Below are positions 49,393 to 59,053 of a DNA stretch of 59,076 nt, piece by piece. Source of the stretch: Nitrospinaceae bacterium (GTDB lineage: Bacteria; Nitrospinota; Nitrospinia; Nitrospinales; Nitrospinaceae). The notes beneath the pieces were generated by a model. The model saw nothing but the letters and a program-made list of their open reading frames with translations, ran no database searches and had not been told where the DNA came from. Location of the stretch: assembly GCA_024644405.1 (NCBI GenBank), contig JAHELC010000011.1, positions 1 to 59,076 of the forward strand. Reading direction: 5' to 3'. The stretch's first letter is position 1; every line of letters starts with the position of its first letter. Made by a program: the position numbers and the translations under genes.

Positions 49393-49800
49393 TCAGGAAG
49401 CGATCTTGCCTTCGGCATTGACCTTGAGTACCTTGTCCCCTTCGATGTGCTTGCCGGTGGCTTTAAAACCGGTTTTGGTACCGTCCACGATCTCAATGGT
49501 CATGCCTTCCAGTTTCTTAAATTCATATTCTTTGATCATCAAATCGAGCTCACAGGGTCCAGCTGTTCTTTGTATTCCGGTCGCCTTGGAAACCATTCTT
49601 TGCGCCATCCCATTAGCCCAATGGCGGTTGCATGCCCTGTGCAGATCTTTTAAATTGCCTTCGGCCTTGAGATTGTAATAATCCGCTTTAAACGGGCTGG
49701 TGCCCGGATAAGCCAGGTAGCCGATCACCGCCACGACAATCACAATCCACACCACCGCTTTTCCACTTTCATTTTCTAAAGATTTCTTACGTATTTTCAT
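49393..49800 (-). CDS. Pilin-like protein lacking the prepilin motif (paralogue 2)
   Basis: A 135-residue protein with one N-terminal membrane helix (AVVWIVIVVAVIGYLAYP) and a small globular domain. It aligns with the pilin at 36409: a membrane segment ending in P, an YYNLKAEGNLKDLHRAC helix, a second Cys (GPC), and the strands TGFKATGKH and VLKVNAEGK. In place of G-FTLxE it has G-KAVVW, so the Phe and Glu at +1 and +5 are absent. AAGGGG precedes the ATG. Its neighbour at 49833 is a closer paralogue. Function unknown. Confidence 0.78.
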   Translation of the reverse strand: MKIRKKSLENESGKAVVWIVIVVAVIGYLAYPGTSPFKADYYNLKAEGNLKDLHRACNRHWANGMAQRMVSKATGIQRTAGPCELDLMIKEYEFKKLEGMTIEIVDGTKTGFKATGKHIEGDKVLKVNAEGKIAS

Positions 49801-49832: not shown

Positions 49833-50246
49833 TCAGGAAACTTTTTTGCCATCCGCGTTGATTTCCACTACGTCAGTCCCCTCTTTATGCTTTGCGGTGG
49901 CGGAGAATCCGCTTTGTGTTCCATCCCTGATTTCAATGACAACATTATTATCGTGCGGGAAATCATAGGGAGAGAGAACCGCCGTTGCCAGATCGCATTC
50001 CGTTGCAGAGTTTTTTTTGCCTTTGTTTGCCAACGATGTGGCGTGCTGTCCGCCGGCGGCCCACACCAGTTTACAGCTGTCGTACAATTGCGTTAACTGG
50101 GTTTCCGCCTTGAAATTGTAATAATGTTCCGCAAACGGGCTGGTCCTGGGATGGAGTAAAAGCGCGAGGACGGCCATGCTCACAAAAAAAATGACCGCTG
50201 TTTTCCCCTGTTCATTGTTGACTGACTGAAACGCTCTCGACATCAT
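49833..50246 (-). CDS. Pilin-like protein lacking the prepilin motif (paralogue 1)
   Basis: A 137-residue protein with an N-terminal membrane helix (TAVIFFVSMAVLALLLHP) and a globular part like that of its neighbour and of the pilin at 36409: YYNFKAETQLTQLYDSC, a second Cys (TEC), IEIRDGTQSGFSATAKH and VVEINADGK. The segment EQGKTAVI aligns with QEGFTLME of the pilin; the +1 Phe and +5 Glu are gone. The start is one of two adjacent ATGs (50246/50243) after a strong GAGGAGG. Lies 100 bp after the LolA-like gene and 32 bp before its paralogue. Confidence 0.78.
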   Translation of the reverse strand: MMSRAFQSVNNEQGKTAVIFFVSMAVLALLLHPRTSPFAEHYYNFKAETQLTQLYDSCKLVWAAGGQHATSLANKGKKNSATECDLATAVLSPYDFPHDNNVVIEIRDGTQSGFSATAKHKEGTDVVEINADGKKVS

Positions 50247-50346
50247 ACGCCTCCTCACCACTGCAATGAGTGATTGATCCTTTCATTCAGTATAAAGGCA
50301 AAAAAACCACCTGAAAGAAATTAATTACTTCAAAAAACCGGGAATT

Positions 50347-51117
50347 TCAGCGTTTTAAAATGCGCTGGGAAAAGTATTTGGCGGGAATATCGACATCGAA
50401 CTTGATTTCGTCGAACATGTAGGTGGTTTTGGTGTTTTCCTTGAGCATATCGCGGAAGACCATCTTCCGGGGAAACAAACGGTCACCGATCCTCCGGTAT
50501 TCCTTGAAGTGAATCAGCTTGAGCAGTTTTCCGCTTTTGGCATACGCTTCTTCCTGGAGCACGGTGTTCTTAACCGGATCGACCCAGATTTTAAGGGTCT
50601 GGTAGGTTTTGGTTTTCTTTTTGGCTTTAAGCGTCATGACCAGCGTTGGCACACCCTCCACCTTTTCCTCACCGTCAATGGTTCCGACATAGGCTTCGCT
50701 GATTTTTTCATCTTCCATCATGTCTTCATAAGAAAGGTCGCTTCCCATCATCGATTGCCGCAACAGATGCCCGGCGATTAGAATTTTGCGGTCGGTATGA
50801 GGTGTGTACATCCATAATTTTTTTTCCAGTTTCAGCATTTTGGTGCCACGCTCTCGCGCGGGCGCCTTGTAATAGCTGTAGGACTTGGTGACGCCCTCCA
50901 TCCAGCTTTCCATCGAAAGCGTTCTGACACGCCGGCCGTTGTCGATGATCAACCGTCCGTCGATGTACTTGGTGCTGGCCCAGAGGTTTTTGTCCACTTC
51001 CACCAACAGACGTTGAGCCCGGTCGTCTTCCGCCCTGCCCACATCCGGCATCAACAAACTCGAGAGCACGACGAAGGACAGTAAGCCGTACCATATGTTT
51101 TTAAAATATAATTTCAT
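50347..51117 (-). CDS. LolA-like outer membrane lipoprotein-sorting protein
   Basis: A 256-residue secreted protein with a signal peptide (cleavage near GRAEDD, about 29). The body matches the LolA-like 'outer membrane lipoprotein-sorting' family (PF17131-like): a long N-terminal beta-section, KKLWMYTP, the telltale GSDLSYEDM motif and TLKIWVDPVKNTVLQEE. Such proteins carry lipid or lipoproteins across the periplasm between an ABC or RND pump and the outer membrane. Its ATG overlaps the stop of the permease gene by 1 nt, so it is the last product of a coupled set. Cargo unknown. Confidence 0.85.
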   Translation of the reverse strand: MKLYFKNIWYGLLSFVVLSSLLMPDVGRAEDDRAQRLLVEVDKNLWASTKYIDGRLIIDNGRRVRTLSMESWMEGVTKSYSYYKAPARERGTKMLKLEKKLWMYTPHTDRKILIAGHLLRQSMMGSDLSYEDMMEDEKISEAYVGTIDGEEKVEGVPTLVMTLKAKKKTKTYQTLKIWVDPVKNTVLQEEAYAKSGKLLKLIHFKEYRRIGDRLFPRKMVFRDMLKENTKTTYMFDEIKFDVDIPAKYFSQRILKR

Positions 51118-52418
51118 TATCCGGCCTCCAGTTCGCGGAACAGGTTGGCTTCCGAGCGTTGAAAAATGGCGAGGTTGGCGATCAGGTTGCCCACCACGCT
51201 GGCGGTGACACCCGGGATCACCGCAAACACGAAGGCATCCAGGCTGACCCGGGCACGAATGATGTCACTCATCATGAGTCCCGATGTCTCGAAGATCCCA
51301 TGGGTGCTGATACCCACTTCCTGCAGGTAATACACCAGACCCCCGCCAATAAGACAACCGGCGGCAGAACCCAGGATACCGACCATCAAGGCTTCCAGCG
51401 CCATGAGGGCAATCAATTTTTTATGGGTTTCGCCCAGGGCAAGCAGTAACCCCATTTCGCCGTAACGGTGCACCCCGTTGAGGAGCCCTGCATTCCAGAG
51501 CACCAGGACCATCAAAAAGGTGAACACGCCGATCACGACATCATCGACCAACTCAAATTTTATGGACAACTCCCGCAGGTTTCTTTGATCGAGAACGGAT
51601 AAGATCAGGGGTTCGTCATCCGAAGCCCAGGCCCCGGGTGGGTTTTGCTTCAATGCCGGAAGATGGTCCATCAGGTTCTGTTTAAGGGAGTCGTACTTTT
51701 TATACCCCACATGCATCGGCAAAAATCCCAGGAAATCGGTGACCATATCCTCCATGTAAAATGTCTGCTGGGCATCGGCCAGATCGATCAATGCCATTTT
51801 CTTGTCCATGGCCGCCAGACCAAACCGCACCAGACCGACCACCCGGTAATTGTCCGTGGCCATTCCGCCATCGAAGTTCTGGCCCAACAGGGTAACGGTA
51901 TCCCCCAACCGCAATCCCAGAGCATCGGCCAGCTTGTACCCCACCAGCATTTCCTTGGGCTGGGAGGGAATCACCCCTTCAATCACGGATTTTTCCAAAT
52001 CCAACCGTTCGCGCTCGGGAGAATTTTTGTCCGACAGGTTGATCGCCATGCCCACCACAGGCGTCTGCGATTTCGTTTCTCCATTCTCATCGGGAACATC
52101 CATGATGGCCCCCCACCGGATCCGAGGCGACCACTCAATTTTCGGGTCGCCGTTTTTCTCCAGCCATTGCAGAGTCTCCTTTTGTCCGGCCAGTGCGCGA
52201 TCAAGGGGAACCAGGTGCTCTTCATCGTAAAACGGTTTGTTGACAAACCTCAGGTGACCGGTATCCAGGTGAGCGGTCATGTCAATCATTCCGGCAAAGG
52301 TACCCTCCATGAATCCCAACAGATAAATCAACAGCGTCACCCCCACGGTGATCACCAGAAAAGGGAACAGCGACCGGGTTTTGTCACGCCAAATGCCTTT
52401 TAATAGCCATCGGATCAT
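51117..52418 (-). CDS. FtsX-type ABC permease 2 (LolC/E-like)
   Basis: A 433-residue permease of the MacB/LolC/FtsX family: one N-terminal membrane helix (FPFLVITVGVTLLIYLLG), a large periplasmic domain (about 45-290) and three C-terminal helices (DDVVIGVFTFLMVLVLW; LIALMALEALMVGILGSAAGC; VFAVIPGVTASVVGNLIANLAIF). The conserved cytoplasmic loop is RYGEMGLLLALGETHKKL. It pairs with the other permease to form a LolCE-like heterodimer with the ATPase at 53581. Its start overlaps the stop of permease 1 by 4 nt. Confidence 0.9.
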   Translation of the reverse strand: MIRWLLKGIWRDKTRSLFPFLVITVGVTLLIYLLGFMEGTFAGMIDMTAHLDTGHLRFVNKPFYDEEHLVPLDRALAGQKETLQWLEKNGDPKIEWSPRIRWGAIMDVPDENGETKSQTPVVGMAINLSDKNSPERERLDLEKSVIEGVIPSQPKEMLVGYKLADALGLRLGDTVTLLGQNFDGGMATDNYRVVGLVRFGLAAMDKKMALIDLADAQQTFYMEDMVTDFLGFLPMHVGYKKYDSLKQNLMDHLPALKQNPPGAWASDDEPLILSVLDQRNLRELSIKFELVDDVVIGVFTFLMVLVLWNAGLLNGVHRYGEMGLLLALGETHKKLIALMALEALMVGILGSAAGCLIGGGLVYYLQEVGISTHGIFETSGLMMSDIIRARVSLDAFVFAVIPGVTASVVGNLIANLAIFQRSEANLFRELEAG

Positions 52419-53584
52419 GTGATCGCCCTCCCCCGGAGCGCCTGGGTCGGTTCCACTTTCGAGATTTTCCGTACCGGCGCCCAGGCGACCAAAATCATAA
52501 TGGCGACAATAACCAGCATGGAGATAATCACTTCCACCGGATCAATCTTGAGAAAAATATTTTCACGAATGGGAATCTGGGATTCCGAAAGATGGGACAC
52601 ATCCAGCCCCACACTCTGGAACCAGGCAAAAATAATCGTTCCCAGAACCAAAGCCACGATAACCGCCGCCAGCGCCGCCAGGCTTCCCTCCATGGTAAAC
52701 AGCCGGACCACCCGGCCGGGCGGCATGCCAAAGGCCATGAGTGTACCGATTTCCCGCTGACGTTTGAAAATATTCAGGAATTGGGTGTTGAACACACTGA
52801 TGCCTCCGAGAAAAATCAGTATGACCCAAATGATGACGGCATATTTCCGGTCCTGCCGGATAAGCTCGAGAATATCCTTGAGAAGGAATTCCGGCTCTTG
52901 AAATAGGGTTTCGACGACGGGTCCCTGAAATTTTTCTACCGCCACCCAGGTGACTTCACCCTCGCGATGGGTGATCTGGCGCAGGTGATCGAGGCGCATC
53001 CACACCACGCCTTCGTCAATGCGGGGATTGATCAGAGGCACCACGTCAACCACCCGGGCGTCCAGCGCATCGACCGCCCCGAAGCGGTCCCGCCATCTCA
53101 GGACCACGCCGTCTCCAATGTGGAGATGGGATTTCCCGGCCATTTGATTGCCTATGATGATGGGGATGACATCATCAACCGGTGTTTTCCATTCCTCCAA
53201 TTTGTTCAAAGGAAGATCGAGCAGCGTTTGCTGCATTTCCATGCCGCGCAATTGCACCGGAAACAATCGGCGGTTGGGGAAAATCTGCCCCTGAAGCACC
53301 AGCACCTCGGCTTTATCTGAAGACGGCAGTCGGGAAAGGGCATCAGGAGTTGCGAAAGTCTCGTCCTCCCATTCCATGGGAGCGAGAATATCGAAATCGG
53401 GGGTTCGGTAATGGCCGCCGGCGACATCGGTCGACACCATGTTGCGTACCGCCTGATCCTGGAACCCGTTGTAAAATGAAAGATTGAAGACCACCGCCAC
53501 CATGGCGAGCGCGGTCACCAGCACGTTCAAAAAAGATCGCATCCCCTGTCGCAGAAAATTTTTGAGCGCAATCTGGAAGATCAT
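52415..53584 (-). CDS. FtsX-type ABC permease 1 (LolC/E-like)
   Basis: A 389-residue permease of the same family: N-terminal helix (SFLNVLVTALAMVAVVFNLS), periplasmic domain (about 45-255) and three C-terminal helices, with the loop KRQREIGTLMAFGMPPGRV. The ATG at 53584 overlaps the ATPase stop by 4 nt (ATGA); the frame's longer start is inside the ATPase gene and is not used. The two permeases are only distantly alike, as for LolC and LolE. It likely mechanically transmits ATP-driven motion to extract a lipid or lipoprotein from the inner membrane. Confidence 0.9.
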   Translation of the reverse strand: MIFQIALKNFLRQGMRSFLNVLVTALAMVAVVFNLSFYNGFQDQAVRNMVSTDVAGGHYRTPDFDILAPMEWEDETFATPDALSRLPSSDKAEVLVLQGQIFPNRRLFPVQLRGMEMQQTLLDLPLNKLEEWKTPVDDVIPIIIGNQMAGKSHLHIGDGVVLRWRDRFGAVDALDARVVDVVPLINPRIDEGVVWMRLDHLRQITHREGEVTWVAVEKFQGPVVETLFQEPEFLLKDILELIRQDRKYAVIIWVILIFLGGISVFNTQFLNIFKRQREIGTLMAFGMPPGRVVRLFTMEGSLAALAAVIVALVLGTIIFAWFQSVGLDVSHLSESQIPIRENIFLKIDPVEVIISMLVIVAIMILVAWAPVRKISKVEPTQALRGRAIT

Positions 53585-54288
53585 ATCAATTTTCCATCGG
53601 GTTGTTTGGTCTTGTCCCATTGCACATAACCGTCGTCCAGGCGCACTTCCCGTCGAATGTATTTGGTCACCTTTTCGTCATGCGTGCAGAATACAAAGGC
53701 GGCCTTGAAATCGCGGTTGAGTTTCAGCATGAGTTCCAGAATATGATAGGAATTTTCGGCATCGAGGTTGGCGGTCGGTTCGTCCGCCAGAACCAGCGCG
53801 GGGTCTTTGATCAAGGCGCGGGCGATCGCCACCCGCTGGCACTGGCCGCCGGACAACTCTGTCGGTTTCTTTTTTATTTCAGGAGTCAGGCCTACCAGAT
53901 CGACCAGGGATCTGACTTTCTCACGAACGTCCGATTCTTTGGCATCGTTGAGTAATAGCGGGAACAGGACATTCTCGTAAACCGTATAGACTGGAAGCAG
54001 GTTGTAGGATTGAAAAATAAAACCGACATTTTCTCTCCGGAAGGCGGCCAACTCATCGCGGTCCATTTGGCTCAAAGGGCGACCCTGGAAGAGAATTTCG
54101 CCGGAGGTGGGTTGATCCAATCCTCCCATCAAATTCAAGATTGTCGTTTTTCCGGAACCCGACGGACCGACAAACGACATGAACGCCCCTTCATCGATTT
54201 CGAGGCTGATATCATGAAGCGCGGTGAAATCCTGGCCGCCCACCCGGTACACTTTGGATACATGATCGATCGTTACCATATTGCTCAT
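53581..54288 (-). CDS. ABC transporter ATPase (LolD/MacB type)
   Basis: A 235-residue ATPase with Walker A GPSGSGKT, Q-loop ENVGFIFQSYNLLPVYTVYEN, signature LSGGQ, Walker B LVLADEP and the H-loop in CTHDEK, all in the LolD/MacB/FtsE-type pattern. Its ATG overlaps the stop of the beta-barrel gene by one base, and its stop overlaps the next permease. It powers the two FtsX-type permeases. No other transporter subunit of this kind is in the window. Confidence 0.95.
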   Translation of the reverse strand: MSNMVTIDHVSKVYRVGGQDFTALHDISLEIDEGAFMSFVGPSGSGKTTILNLMGGLDQPTSGEILFQGRPLSQMDRDELAAFRRENVGFIFQSYNLLPVYTVYENVLFPLLLNDAKESDVREKVRSLVDLVGLTPEIKKKPTELSGGQCQRVAIARALIKDPALVLADEPTANLDAENSYHILELMLKLNRDFKAAFVFCTHDEKVTKYIRREVRLDDGYVQWDKTKQPDGKLI

Positions 54289-55421
54289 CAGAAAAATGCG
54301 ATTAGAGTGAGGCCGGCACGCGACTCGGTTCCCGTAAAAACAAATGGGGATTCACGGAACAAACGGCCGGACCGGTTGTTGCCGTCAACACTGCCTCCGA
54401 CCTGTGCTTGCACATACAAGTACAACTGTTTCCAAATGTTGTATTCGATTTGCGGAGCGAATTGAAAACTCTGGTCACTCAAGTCGAAAAAGAAAAACGC
54501 CCGCCAGACAATATCGATACCTACCGGCTGGTCCAACTGCAAGCCCAACACCTGGATCGTCCGGTCCTGTTTAGGATCGATATTGGTAAAACCCGGCTCC
54601 TGCGTCCTGAGAAAATATTCCAGCAAAACATGAAGGCCCTGCCCTACATCAAAAGTGTAATCGACACCGAAGACCGTATCAAATCTTAATGGGTCGCCAG
54701 GCTGGTCCTGCTGAATATCCAACCGGCTTTCGTTCCAGTAACCCACCCCATACTCACCTTTGAGGTGATACCCCACCTGAACCATTTCAAGATTAAAGTC
54801 GGCTAAAAAGGGAAGATCGGTTTTGGGATGGTATTGCACAACCGCGCCGGCTTCGATCGGGCCGAAGTTCGCTTCACCCCGCAATCCGGTGATGACCCGG
54901 TTCCCGGTCTTCGCTGGCACTGCCCAGCCCTGAACTGAAGAGGTACTGCTCAGGAAATAGGTCGACCGCAATCCATCGACACCTCGGGTGAGGGGGATAA
55001 TTCCTGAAATAACTCGGGTATCGAAGAAACCGAGTGGACGAAACAAGGTACTCGCCCCGAAAAGTATCTGCTGGCGACCGCCACGGATTTTAAAATTGTC
55101 CTTTTCATACCGGATCCAGCCACGGAACAGCTCAGCGTCGTATTCCTCCACCGCACCTATTTCTTCACGAATGCCGCCGGTATAAAGCAGATCACCGACC
55201 ACTTCATAATCGAAAATGTGTCCGTCTTTTTCAAACAGCGTGCCCACCAGGCCGTTTCTCAATTCGACTTCGTGATCGAATCGGGTGAGGTCCGCTGGAG
55301 GCGGATCGAACAGCATCTGCGAGCTGGCACGGAAGCGCCCTTCGTAATGCCAGTCGAACGCCCACACCTGCGCAGGCACCCCTACCAGCAAAAGCCCGGA
55401 GAGATAGAGGAAAGTTTTCAT
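54288..55421 (-). CDS. Outer-membrane beta-barrel protein
   Basis: A 377-residue protein with a signal peptide (cleavage near VWAFD, about 21). The rest is a run of amphipathic beta-strands (LFEKDGHIFDYEVVGDLLY; VGYHLKGEYGVGYWNESRLDI; IDIVWRAFFFFDLSDQSFQFAPQIEYNIW) and it ends in Phe-Phe, the BAM-type C-terminal signal. It resembles DUF1302-like and other porin-like barrels; the exact family is not clear. Its position as the first gene before the ABC set suggests an outer-membrane acceptor for the exported cargo. Its ATG overlaps the GT stop by 4 nt. Confidence 0.8.
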   Translation of the reverse strand: MKTFLYLSGLLLVGVPAQVWAFDWHYEGRFRASSQMLFDPPPADLTRFDHEVELRNGLVGTLFEKDGHIFDYEVVGDLLYTGGIREEIGAVEEYDAELFRGWIRYEKDNFKIRGGRQQILFGASTLFRPLGFFDTRVISGIIPLTRGVDGLRSTYFLSSTSSVQGWAVPAKTGNRVITGLRGEANFGPIEAGAVVQYHPKTDLPFLADFNLEMVQVGYHLKGEYGVGYWNESRLDIQQDQPGDPLRFDTVFGVDYTFDVGQGLHVLLEYFLRTQEPGFTNIDPKQDRTIQVLGLQLDQPVGIDIVWRAFFFFDLSDQSFQFAPQIEYNIWKQLYLYVQAQVGGSVDGNNRSGRLFRESPFVFTGTESRAGLTLIAFF

Positions 55422-56590
55422 TTTGAAGAAATCAATTCCTCAACTGCATTCTCGATTTTTTTGCAAATGGCCTCCCAGCTGTAATGCGTTTGTACCGCCC
55501 GGTAACCGTTGTCTCCCAGAGTTTTCATTTTGTGAGGATCAGCGAGTAAATCCTTTATCGGCTTTTCCCAATCCTGCGGATGCATGGATTGGACCATCAC
55601 TCCGATTTCTTGCTCACGAAATAGATTATCCAGCCCACCCACGGGGTTGGTGATGATGGGCCGCCCACAAGCCATATACTCAAATATTTTCAAGGGAGAA
55701 ATTCCGGTCTCGTTCAATCCTTCCTCAAAGTAAGGCGCCAGGCAAATATCCCCGGCATTGATATAGACGGGAACTTGTTCAAAGGGAACCCGCCCTGCGA
55801 GGATAATATTCCGGCTCATCCGTTTTTGGTCGATCCACTGTTTCAGATCATCCTTCTTTTCACCGTCGCCGACGATCAACAGATGGAGGCCCGGGTTGTC
55901 TTCAACCAGGGCGGGCATCAGGGGAACCAGCCGGTCAATACCATGCCAGCGTTTCAAAGAACCCACGAACACCAGATAATTCCCATCCGGCGGCAATCCC
56001 AACTGATTCCGGCATTCGGTCTTATCCATCGGCCGGGAAAATTCCGGATTGGCGCCGTTGCTGACCACCAAGATGGAATCTTCCTTCACTCCATAATTCC
56101 GACACAAATAATCGCGAATCAATATCGAGGGCACCACCACTTGATCCGACAGCTTATAAATGATGCACTCCATAACAGTGACGAAGGCAATCCAAACCTT
56201 TGACACGTTATTGATTTTCATTTCCACAGGGGCCAGTCCGTTGACCTCGACCACATACTTGAACCGGAACACATATTTCAGGAGGGTGGCTATCCATTCC
56301 AGGGATTGCAGGCGGGCATACAGGACATCCGGCCGGGATTTTAAACAGTGCCATGAAAGAACAAAAAACAGGCTCAGATAAAAGGAAAAAAAAGTAAACC
56401 AGGACTTTCTGAAACCCACCGGCACATGGACGAACCGGACTCCCGCGAGTTCCCGTCTTTCACCCAGATCCGGGACAAACAGAGTCACCTCGTGTCCCAT
56501 CCGCGCAAATTGCCGGCAAAACTCAAAAACGTGACGGGTGCTGGCGTCTTCGGTGGCCGTATTGATCCTGGCGAGATAAAAAACTTTCAT
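55418..56590 (-). CDS. Glycosyltransferase family 4
   Basis: A 390-residue GT-B enzyme: KVFYLARINTATEDASTRHVFEF at the N-terminus, a hydrophobic stretch (FFSFYLSLFFVLSWHCL) in the N-terminal domain, FVGSLKRWHGIDRLV, LIVGDGEKKDDL and APYFEEGLNETGISPLKIFEYMACGRPII in the sugar-nucleotide domain. The ATG at 56590 is used; an upstream start at 56629 is possible but poorer. Four-base overlap with the beta-barrel gene makes it the first gene of the export operon. It may glycosylate the cargo or a surface glycan. Confidence 0.88.
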   Translation of the reverse strand: MKVFYLARINTATEDASTRHVFEFCRQFARMGHEVTLFVPDLGERRELAGVRFVHVPVGFRKSWFTFFSFYLSLFFVLSWHCLKSRPDVLYARLQSLEWIATLLKYVFRFKYVVEVNGLAPVEMKINNVSKVWIAFVTVMECIIYKLSDQVVVPSILIRDYLCRNYGVKEDSILVVSNGANPEFSRPMDKTECRNQLGLPPDGNYLVFVGSLKRWHGIDRLVPLMPALVEDNPGLHLLIVGDGEKKDDLKQWIDQKRMSRNIILAGRVPFEQVPVYINAGDICLAPYFEEGLNETGISPLKIFEYMACGRPIITNPVGGLDNLFREQEIGVMVQSMHPQDWEKPIKDLLADPHKMKTLGDNGYRAVQTHYSWEAICKKIENAVEELISSK

Positions 56591-56680: not shown

Positions 56681-57166
56681 CTAGAGTAATTTCTTGAGAT
56701 AGGGAACCAGTTGATCGGCTCCGACCGAAGGGCTTCGGGCTCTGAGAACCCCTTTGGAATCGATTATCAAAACAGTGGGCATATCCCTTTGGGTATAGGC
56801 CTTGTGCACGGTCTGGTTGGGATCCAGCAAGTATGGGAAATGGACCGGCTGGGGAAATCCCGCAAGGTAATCCTGGACCGCTTTTTTAGAATCACCACTG
56901 GTATTGATTCCCAGGATAACCAGGTTGTCTGTGTTCAACGCCTTTCGGACTTTTTCGAACTCCATCGCCTGATTCATGCAGGGCACGCAAATATGAAACA
57001 TACCCACGAGAACGACCTTGCCTTTCAAGTCGCTCAAGGTATGTTGTCCACCGGTGATGGCATTCAAAGAAAAATCAGGAGCGGAATCTCCCGCCTGTGG
57101 GCTGGCTGCCCAAGCTGGGTGAGCCAAAAATAGGATATTCAGGAGAATAAGGATAATTTTTCTCAT
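56681..57166 (-). CDS. TlpA/redoxin-type thiol-disulfide protein
   Basis: A 161-residue secreted protein with a signal peptide (cleavage near AWAAS, about 20). The thioredoxin-like domain has PDFSLNAITGG, GKVVLVGMFHICVPCMNQ with the active-site Cys60 and Cys63 (CVPC), and the cis-Pro loop MPTVLIID. It reduces or exchanges disulfides in the periplasm, perhaps for cytochrome c or copper protein assembly. GAGG precedes the ATG by 7 nt. It is divergent from the cupredoxin genes. Confidence 0.9.
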   Translation of the reverse strand: MRKIILILLNILFLAHPAWAASPQAGDSAPDFSLNAITGGQHTLSDLKGKVVLVGMFHICVPCMNQAMEFEKVRKALNTDNLVILGINTSGDSKKAVQDYLAGFPQPVHFPYLLDPNQTVHKAYTQRDMPTVLIIDSKGVLRARSPSVGADQLVPYLKKLL

Positions 57167-57408: not shown

Positions 57409-57437
57409 TTGAACTTGCAACCGGTTTGATATATGAT
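57409..57437 (+). promoter_or_regulatory. Promoter of the cupredoxin pair
   Basis: TTGAAC (57409-57414), a 17-bp spacer and TATGAT (57432-57437). The -10 overlaps the ATG at 57433, so transcription would start after it and translation must begin at the ATG at 57472. Confidence 0.5.
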
Positions 57438-57471
57438 TTCGCTAAAATCTCTAAACCTTTTAATTTTTAAG

Positions 57472-58164
57472 ATGTTTAAAACTATTTTTGCTACATTTTC
57501 GCTTCTGATTCTGGCCTCTCCGATGCACGCAGCAACCATCAAAGGAGAGATCAAATACCTGGGGAAAGTCCCGTCCCCGGTCACTCACAAAACGGGAAAG
57601 TTTAAAAAAGTGTGTGGTTCTGAGATACTGGAGGAGTCGTTAATCCTTCAAAATCAAAAAGTTAAGAATGTTGTGGTTTGGCTGGAAGGGAAACAAGCTA
57701 AAAAATTAAAAAACAAGCCCGGAACTTATACGCTCGACCAGAAGAAATGCGCTTATTCGCCGCGAATTCTGGCCATGCCCCAGGGCTCCGTATTGAAGAT
57801 TTTGACCAGTGATCCGATCAATCACAATATCCATACCTACTCCTTTGAAAACGATCCGATTAATATCATGTTTTTACCAAATCAGGATTATACTCAGGAG
57901 ATGGAGGAACCGGAGGTCATCAAAGTTTCCTGCGACCTTCATAGCTGGATGGAGGCTTACATCGTGGTTACGCCGCATTCCTACTTTGCAGTCACCCAGA
58001 GCAATGGCACCTTTGAAATCCCAAATGTTCCTCCGGGAAAATACACACTCAAAGTATGGCACGAGTTGCTGGGTGAGGAGTCGCGGAAAATTGAAGTCGG
58101 AAAAAATGTGACTCAGGTCAATTTAAATTTCACGGAATTGGCGACTCAAATAACTCGAAAATAG
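57472..58164 (+). CDS. Secreted cupredoxin-like protein with carboxypeptidase-regulatory-like tail (a)
   Basis: A 230-residue secreted protein. The start ATG at 57472 gives a clean signal peptide (FKTIFATFSLLILASPMHA); the upstream ATG at 57433 lies in the -10 box of its promoter. A cupredoxin-like domain has a candidate type-1 copper site: NHNIHTYS for the first His, and SCDLHSWM with Cys, His and Met. A carboxypeptidase-regulatory-like segment follows (GTFEIPNVPPGKYTLKVWHE). It is probably a periplasmic copper or electron carrier. A 52-bp gap separates it from the next paralogue, suggesting co-transcription. Confidence 0.82.
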   Translation: MFKTIFATFSLLILASPMHAATIKGEIKYLGKVPSPVTHKTGKFKKVCGSEILEESLILQNQKVKNVVVWLEGKQAKKLKNKPGTYTLDQKKCAYSPRILAMPQGSVLKILTSDPINHNIHTYSFENDPINIMFLPNQDYTQEMEEPEVIKVSCDLHSWMEAYIVVTPHSYFAVTQSNGTFEIPNVPPGKYTLKVWHELLGEESRKIEVGKNVTQVNLNFTELATQITRK

Positions 58165-58216: not shown

Positions 58217-59053
58217 ATGAAAAAGCCCAAGCTGTTTATCCGATTGGCCCTGACTTTCTTCGCATGTATCCTGAGTACACAGGTTTGGGCCTATCAGGAG
58301 ATTGAAGTTAAAAATGGAGGAACCATTCAGGGGAAAACCACTTTGATAGGGGGAGTTCCCCAGCCCCGGGTGTTCCATCTCGTTTTGTTTCCAAACCTCG
58401 ACATGTGCGCCGAAGTGGATACGGATGACGAAATGAACCGAGTACTCTTTGACTTTATCACCGACGAGCAACGCGGACTGAAGGACGTGGTGATTACCCT
58501 GGATCACGTGGAAGCCGGCAAATCTTTTCCCAACAAACCAATCAATATTCTCTCGGAAAATTGCAAATTCCTGCCGACCGTTAACGTCATCCCGCAGGGA
58601 GGAACGTTCTTTGTCGACAACCAGGATGCGGTCATGCACAACAGCCAAGTTTACCAAAGTGAGCGGGGTAAAATCATCCTGAACATCCCGATACCCGCCG
58701 AAGAGATTTCCGAAGGTAAAGTGCAGTTCAAAAAGCATTATAAAATTTTCCAGATGATCTGCGGAATGCACGAGTTCATGCAAACCTGGGGCTACCGGGT
58801 GCAAAATCCTTATTACCATCTAACCCAAGTCGACGGTAATTATAAAATCGACAACATCCCTGCCGGGGAATACAAAATCACCGCCTGGCATTTTTTGATG
58901 AAAAAGCAGTCCAAGAAAATCAAAATTTCTGAGGGCGAAACGATTAATCTGGATTTTGAATTCGACGGCGATAAGGTCATTCGCCCCTTTTATGAAACCA
59001 TCAAATCCGGACGGATCAAAAAAGATGCACGGGTTCCGGGAAGTATCCATTAA
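58217..59053 (+). CDS. Secreted cupredoxin-like protein with carboxypeptidase-regulatory-like tail (b)
   Basis: A 278-residue secreted protein with a signal peptide (cleavage near VWAYQ). GAGGGAG lies 7 nt before the ATG. It is closest in layout to the C-terminal part of the TPR fusion at 41360: GKTTLIGGVPQPRVFHL, VLFDFI...RGLKDVVITLDHVEAGKSFP. The putative copper ligands are MHNSQVY and ICGMHEFM, with Met present. A carboxypeptidase-regulatory-like segment (GNYKIDNIPAGEYKITAWH) follows. Likely a copper-binding electron-transfer or metal-handling protein, co-transcribed with the gene before it. Confidence 0.82.
   Translation: MKKPKLFIRLALTFFACILSTQVWAYQEIEVKNGGTIQGKTTLIGGVPQPRVFHLVLFPNLDMCAEVDTDDEMNRVLFDFITDEQRGLKDVVITLDHVEAGKSFPNKPINILSENCKFLPTVNVIPQGGTFFVDNQDAVMHNSQVYQSERGKIILNIPIPAEEISEGKVQFKKHYKIFQMICGMHEFMQTWGYRVQNPYYHLTQVDGNYKIDNIPAGEYKITAWHFLMKKQSKKIKISEGETINLDFEFDGDKVIRPFYETIKSGRIKKDARVPGSIH

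Follow-up and report, generated by a model that had tools for sequence, protein, structure and literature searches.

The question raised by the locus described here is whether six tightly coupled genes of a nitrite-oxidising marine bacterium of the order Nitrospinales encode the housekeeping Lol machinery or a separate route across the cell envelope. The locus occupies positions 50347-56590 of a 59,076-nucleotide stretch of DNA (hereafter the window), which corresponds to one contig (C36) of a 2.98 Mb genome that is 95.8% complete. It consists of six open reading frames (ORFs), all on the minus strand and each with an ATG start and an in-frame stop. On balance, it is considered probable that five of these genes specify a self-contained, Lol-like ATP-binding cassette (ABC) exporter, which would take a hydrophobic, lipid-like cargo out of the inner membrane and relay it through a dedicated LolA-like shuttle to a dedicated outer-membrane β-barrel. 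The genes, together with one upstream neighbour that is not claimed as a component, are as follows:

55418-56590, minus strand: GT4-type cytosolic glycosyltransferase (GT), accessory; Glycos_transf_1 (E=1e-27) and Glyco_transf_4, no transmembrane helix; 4 nt overlap with the barrel gene
54288-55421, minus strand: outer-membrane β-barrel of 377 aa; 18 predicted strands, signal peptide-like N-terminus, C-terminal Phe
53581-54288, minus strand: LolD-like ABC ATPase; ABC_tran (1e-35), with Walker A, LSGGQ and TH(D) motifs
52415-53584, minus strand: FtsX-type permease P1 of 389 aa with four transmembrane helices; FtsX (3e-19)
51117-52418, minus strand: FtsX/MacB_PCD permease P2 of 433 aa with four transmembrane helices; FtsX (8e-10), MacB_PCD (4e-8)
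50347-51117, minus strand: periplasmic LolA-like carrier; LolA_like, PF17131 (E=2e-49)
56681-57166, minus strand: TlpA/ResA-like periplasmic thioredoxin, the upstream neighbour; AhpC-TSA (2e-19), 90 nt before the GT gene

From the GT gene to the LolA-like gene, successive genes overlap by 4, 1, 4, 4 and 1 nt, figures that assume starts at 56590 for GT and 53584 for P1. The ORF list and the measurement of the junctions therefore bear out the single-stranded, overlapping arrangement described in the original prediction, which had been made from the DNA alone, and Pfam searches agree with its family calls for the GT, the ATPase, the permease pair and the carrier.

Hydropathy analysis of P1 and P2 showed one plus three hydrophobic helices in each, with a large domain following the first. 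These four-helix subunits, the FtsX C-terminal domain present in both, and an ATPase with the ABC motifs are the hallmarks of a type VII (FtsX/MacB/LolCDE) ABC transporter. The best NCBIfam match of the ATPase is LolD, at 239 bits and under the cut-off of 308, and P1 and P2 match LolC/E weakly (51 and 30 bits, cut-off 362). Weak sequence matches of P2 in the PDB are led by LolF, with MacB and LolE next. The carrier displayed a full-length match to PF17131 (168 bits against a cut-off of 30, profile positions 3-184 of 184), and its relatives in the PDB are 4z48, 3buu, 3bk5 and 9tp6. Within the carrier, the motif GSDLSYEDMMEDE is invariant from Nitrospinota to Neomarinimicrobiota (alignment A2) and is slightly altered in Persicobacter, where the translations of loci L028 and L029 read GSDVSYEDMMQER and GSDISYEDMMQEK.

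The host genome encodes one canonical LolCE (G000:C16:240897-242165), which scores 425.7 bits against the cut-off of 362. The only PF03548 protein encoded there is a canonical LolA (C16:97207-97701). Because both sit on another contig, the locus under study is not the housekeeping Lol system. Indeed, that identification was rejected also on the scores of the locus, which fall below the LolC/E and LolD cut-offs, and on its carrier, which belongs to PF17131 and not PF03548. The distinctness from housekeeping Lol that had been proposed is thus upheld. A second argument of the original prediction, that the Lol pathway ends in the lipoprotein LolB and not in a barrel, is uninformative here, because no match to LolB was found anywhere in the host genome. 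Across the phylum, canonical LolCE is present in 68 of 77 genomes.

The barrel was modelled with AlphaFold2 on 37 sequences (alignment A5). The resultant model has 18 strands, a mean predicted local distance difference test (pLDDT) score of 86.8 and a predicted TM-score (pTM) of 0.82, and so substantiates the call of an outer-membrane barrel; an earlier model, built on 6 sequences only, had a pLDDT of 44. Foldseek grouped the modelled barrel with classical porin-like folds at 9-13% identity, among them MOMP (5ldt), OccAB1 (5dl5, TM-score 0.62) and AlgE (5d5d, TM-score 0.61). The likeness to AlgE and OccD/OccK is one of strand number and fold, whereas there is no sequence relation between these proteins and the window barrel (9-11% identity) and AlgE serves a different machine. 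The barrel sequence matched no family in Pfam, NCBIfam or the PDB sequences. The best-conserved stretch, R-x-G-x-Q-x-I-x-FG....RPL.FFD, falls within the long segment that joins strand 5 to strand 6 and may line the pore. Several established families were considered for this protein. Omp85 was ruled out by the 18 strands, the lack of POTRA domains and best fold matches to porins, MOMP, Occ and AlgE; TolC by the 18-strand porin-like fold, which is not TolC-like; and LptD by the length of 377 aa and 18 strands without a jellyroll domain. Membership of the DUF1302 family is unsupported, there being no DUF1302 match even at E<=5.

A profile of P2 found orthologues, nearly all full length, in 48 of 64 Nitrospinales genomes, including 25 of the 28 that are near-complete (>=90% complete, <=5% contaminated). 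In the rest of the phylum the same profile gave two weak, non-orthologous matches only. The order barrel-ATPase-P1-P2 is kept in 35 of 39 Nitrospinales loci, with the LolA-like gene next wherever it was detected, and contig ends account for three of the four exceptions. The overlaps recur as well: measured at 46 loci, the P1-P2 junction is -4 nt in 41. TlpA was found upstream of the unit in 24 Nitrospinales loci of the set L054-L093, and a SPOR/Cds6_C-domain gene is often present there too. In many Nitrospinales the gene for this SPOR plus Cds6_C (NTF2-like) protein separates TlpA from the barrel, for example at L063:9059-9862 (minus strand) and equivalent positions; it is absent in the genus of the window, where the GT gene occupies its place.

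The GT gene was found in 11 of the 24 Nitrospinales loci whose upstream region is completely covered (one copy being a fragment), always between TlpA/SPOR and the barrel. Given this patchy distribution and fixed slot, the GT seems to be an optional member of the operon in Nitrospinales that lies outside the conserved five-gene core, and its candidacy as a conserved core partner was rejected. The earlier suggestion that the GT is a partner that modifies the cargo does not hold in general, as the gene is also absent from the module in other phyla.

The five-gene order of barrel, ATPase, P1, P2 and LolA-like carrier extends beyond the Nitrospinota, a distribution that is to be read as a lower bound. 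It was found in an unclassified bacterial metagenome-assembled genome (MAG; L020), in a Neomarinimicrobiota MAG (L022) and on two plasmids of Persicobacter (Bacteroidota; L028 and L029). Identity to the window proteins in these distant modules is 22-26% for the barrel, 34-37% for P2 and about 40-44% for the LolA-like carrier, and neither GT nor TlpA was found at any of the four loci. A TetR-type regulator lies directly upstream in L022, L028 and L029 (TetR_N shown for L028). The hosts of L020 and L022 also have a tandem LolC/LolE-like permease pair elsewhere; one member of the pair reaches the cut-off in the host of L020 and neither does in that of L022. The Neomarinimicrobiota locus (L022:6282-8595) has a duplicated P1 besides P2, and hence three permease genes with one ATPase.

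In a quick maximum-likelihood tree, the LolA-like proteins of the module grouped together, separate from those linked to MMPL pumps or to other ABC genes (SH-like approximate likelihood ratio test, SH-aLRT, 93). A similar tree with LolCE as outgroup separated a P1 clade and a P2 clade, each with an SH-aLRT of 100. Recurrence of the five-gene order in dozens of genomes from several phyla shows that the coupling of these genes goes beyond chance, and agrees with the idea that the barrel and the ABC genes are conserved together. Taken together with the separate clades for the LolA-like carrier, P1 and P2, the shared order suggests that the five genes have evolved as one unit.

More distant loci combine an ATPase, one FtsX permease and a LolA-like protein with a hypothetical protein of ~400 aa. 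Such loci were found in Vibrio and Plesiomonas (with a histidine kinase and a LytTR regulator) and on plasmids of Bdellovibrio, Aliiroseovarius and E. coli. The E. coli and Aliiroseovarius copies adjoin ketosynthase genes, and also genes for acyl carrier protein (ACP), crotonase or anthrone oxygenase. On the E. coli IncK2/Z plasmid (L032; NZ_CP060058.1:11084-28238), a cluster for ACP, ketosynthase, short-chain dehydrogenase/reductase and crotonase comes with its own ATPase, FtsX permease, LolA-like protein and ~400-aa hypothetical protein; 2 of 5426 complete E. coli genomes have such a cluster. Among relatives with a different pump, a Sulfitobacter MMPL/LolA-like pair adjoins a type I polyketide synthase gene. 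The host of the window itself encodes, on C32, an MMPL, LolA_like (also DUF1329) and DUF1302 barrel set of AmeABCD design and, on C16, two MMPL-LolA_like pairs in tandem, separated by a TetR-like gene. These sets (L024:5449-10172 and L023:8085-15427) are Ame-like systems that the host has in addition to the ABC version.

How, then, might the module work? P1 and P2 together with two copies of the LolD-like ATPase would form a type VII transporter, which would draw its cargo from the inner membrane. The operon's soluble LolA-fold shuttle would then take the cargo up in its hydrophobic cavity, carry it across the periplasm and hand it to the operon's predicted 18-strand barrel, for delivery to, or passage through, the outer membrane. 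The co-translated GT of some Nitrospinales may glycosylate the cargo beforehand. The analysis shows the gene families, the tight coupling of the genes, the barrel fold, the conservation of the five genes as a unit and their separation from the housekeeping Lol genes; we infer that the parts assemble into one route, which way it runs, that the barrel receives the cargo and what this cargo is. A lipid-like cargo is favoured over a lipoprotein, because canonical Lol is present, the resistance-nodulation-division (RND) analogues handle hydrophobes, and distant ABC relatives adjoin acyl- or polyketide-type genes.

Several observations weigh against this exporter. None of these three arguments for a lipid-like cargo is direct for Nitrospinales, and in the window no flanking biosynthetic gene other than the optional GT was found beside the module. 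The 18-strand fold is generic, with ordinary porins among its closest matches. Moreover, hhalign comparison of the barrel with the hypothetical proteins of the gamma loci and with the DUF1302 barrel of its own genome gave probabilities of 1-3%, which are not significant; with no detectable homology, any transfer of function from those proteins is loose. Finally, the fourth exception to the barrel-ABC order is a single-contig genome, G057 (L061, C1:411000-424000), that retains P2 and the LolA-like gene only, with P1 cut off and unrelated genes in place of P1, the ATPase and the barrel. The unit may thus not be indispensable there, or the assembly may be at fault.

Of the alternatives to a lipid exporter, a second, specialised Lol system for a subset of lipoproteins survives best. 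In this case the barrel would replace LolB as an insertase or surface-exposure gate, a role that has been proposed for Borrelia BBJ23-29 (PMC13078400). The ATPase is closest to LolD, the best PDB sequence matches of P2 are LolF and then MacB and LolE, and the genome is without LolB. However, the scores are far under the LolC/D/E cut-offs, a canonical set is already present, and the RND/MMPL relatives, whose carriers come from the same superfamily, are exporters of small hydrophobes (PMC6394551). In addition, the conserved neighbourhood contained no gene identified as encoding a lipoprotein, although no systematic lipobox scan was made there. This explanation is therefore regarded as unlikely. 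A role in efflux, in which the module would rid the cell of toxic lipophilic compounds as the ABC equivalent of AmeABCD and have no part in biogenesis, is decidedly unlikely. The AmeABCD precedent (PMC6394551) and the TetR-type regulators directly upstream in L022, L028 and L029, as are common in efflux operons, are consistent with it, but no TetR gene is evident close to the module in the window, and near-universal vertical retention in autotrophic Nitrospinales (25/28) is more in keeping with a housekeeping product than with inducible detoxification. A MacAB-TolC or FtsEX-like role (in tripartite efflux or in mechanotransmission) that leaves the barrel as an unrelated porin sharing the operon would suit the FtsX and MacB_PCD domains and the generic porin fold but is very improbable given the separate ATPase, two permeases and dedicated LolA-fold carrier, the lack of an adaptor (membrane fusion protein, MFP) or TolC gene at the locus, and a barrel kept beside the ABC genes across phyla.

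Some further genes surround the module in the window. A gene for a small single-transmembrane protein lies 85 nt downstream of the LolA-like gene; it belongs to a pair (49393-49800 and 49833-50261, minus strand) whose products are related (~40% identical by cross-hits) and without a Pfam match, and which was detected only in loci of the window's genus and nearest relatives. On the other side, two adjoining plus-strand genes (57433-58164 and 58217-59053) encode secreted-looking proteins, the first with a carboxypeptidase-regulatory-like C-terminus, and this pair is also found as neighbours in L015.

The nearest described system to the lipid exporter favoured here is Borrelia BBJ23-29, which follows the same logic with an Omp85 barrel. 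It was described computationally as one cluster with an ABC ATPase, a MacB/LolE-like permease, a LolA-like carrier, an outer-membrane barrel and TPR proteins (PMC13078400). There, however, the barrel is Omp85 and one permease is present, whereas the Nitrospinales locus has an 18-strand porin-like barrel and two permeases; a search of the Borrelia plasmids with the window LolA-like protein gave no match at E<=0.01. AmeABCD of Castellaniella defragrans, which contributes to monoterpene tolerance and dye export, likewise combines an energised inner-membrane pump with a LolA-superfamily periplasmic protein (AmeB, DUF1329) and a barrel (AmeA, DUF1302) (PMC6394551), but its pump is an HAE3 RND protein and not ABC/FtsX, its barrel family is unlike by sequence, and AmeC has no counterpart here. 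In Bacteroidetes, the TetR-MMPL-LolA_like operons that are switched on when iron or hemin is scarce (PMC10434189, PMC10470040) share the PF17131-type carrier, a hypothetical partner and, as in Persicobacter, TetR control, and differ in using an MMPL pump. With LolCDE/LolF-LolA-LolB the module shares a LolD-like ATPase, LolC/E-type permease topology and a LolA-fold carrier, whereas it falls below the family cut-offs, uses PF17131 in place of PF03548, has a barrel partner and coexists with canonical LolCE and LolA. MacAB-TolC has a fused ATPase-permease, an MFP and TolC, in contrast to the separate ATPase and the lack of an MFP or TolC gene in the conserved locus, and Lpt relies on LptFG (YjgP/Q) permeases and LptD where the module has FtsX permeases and a 377-aa barrel without a jellyroll. 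The claim of an undescribed system stands in part: the open-access literature searched (subscription papers and preprints were outside its scope) held no paper on the version with an 18-strand barrel and two permeases, but Borrelia BBJ23-29 and AmeABCD are close architectural analogues.

PF17131 LolA-like proteins are common and are routinely annotated as 'outer membrane lipoprotein-sorting protein', and for several LolA-like proteins with solved structures the function is still unknown (PMC6394551). A compact unit in which such a protein is joined to its own ABC pump and its own barrel offers a testable system for how lipids other than lipopolysaccharide, or hydrophobic products, may get to or beyond the outer membrane with neither LolB nor LptD. 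Its order is kept across phyla and it is nearly universal in the nitrite oxidisers of the Nitrospinales, and the Persicobacter plasmid copies place the module in culturable hosts. More tentatively, the barrel, ATPase, two FtsX permeases and LolA-like carrier, with TetR or GT as optional additions, could represent a hitherto undescribed cross-phylum lipid export machine parallel to Lol and Lpt, which would deliver a specific lipid or glycolipid into or through the outer membrane via its own barrel.

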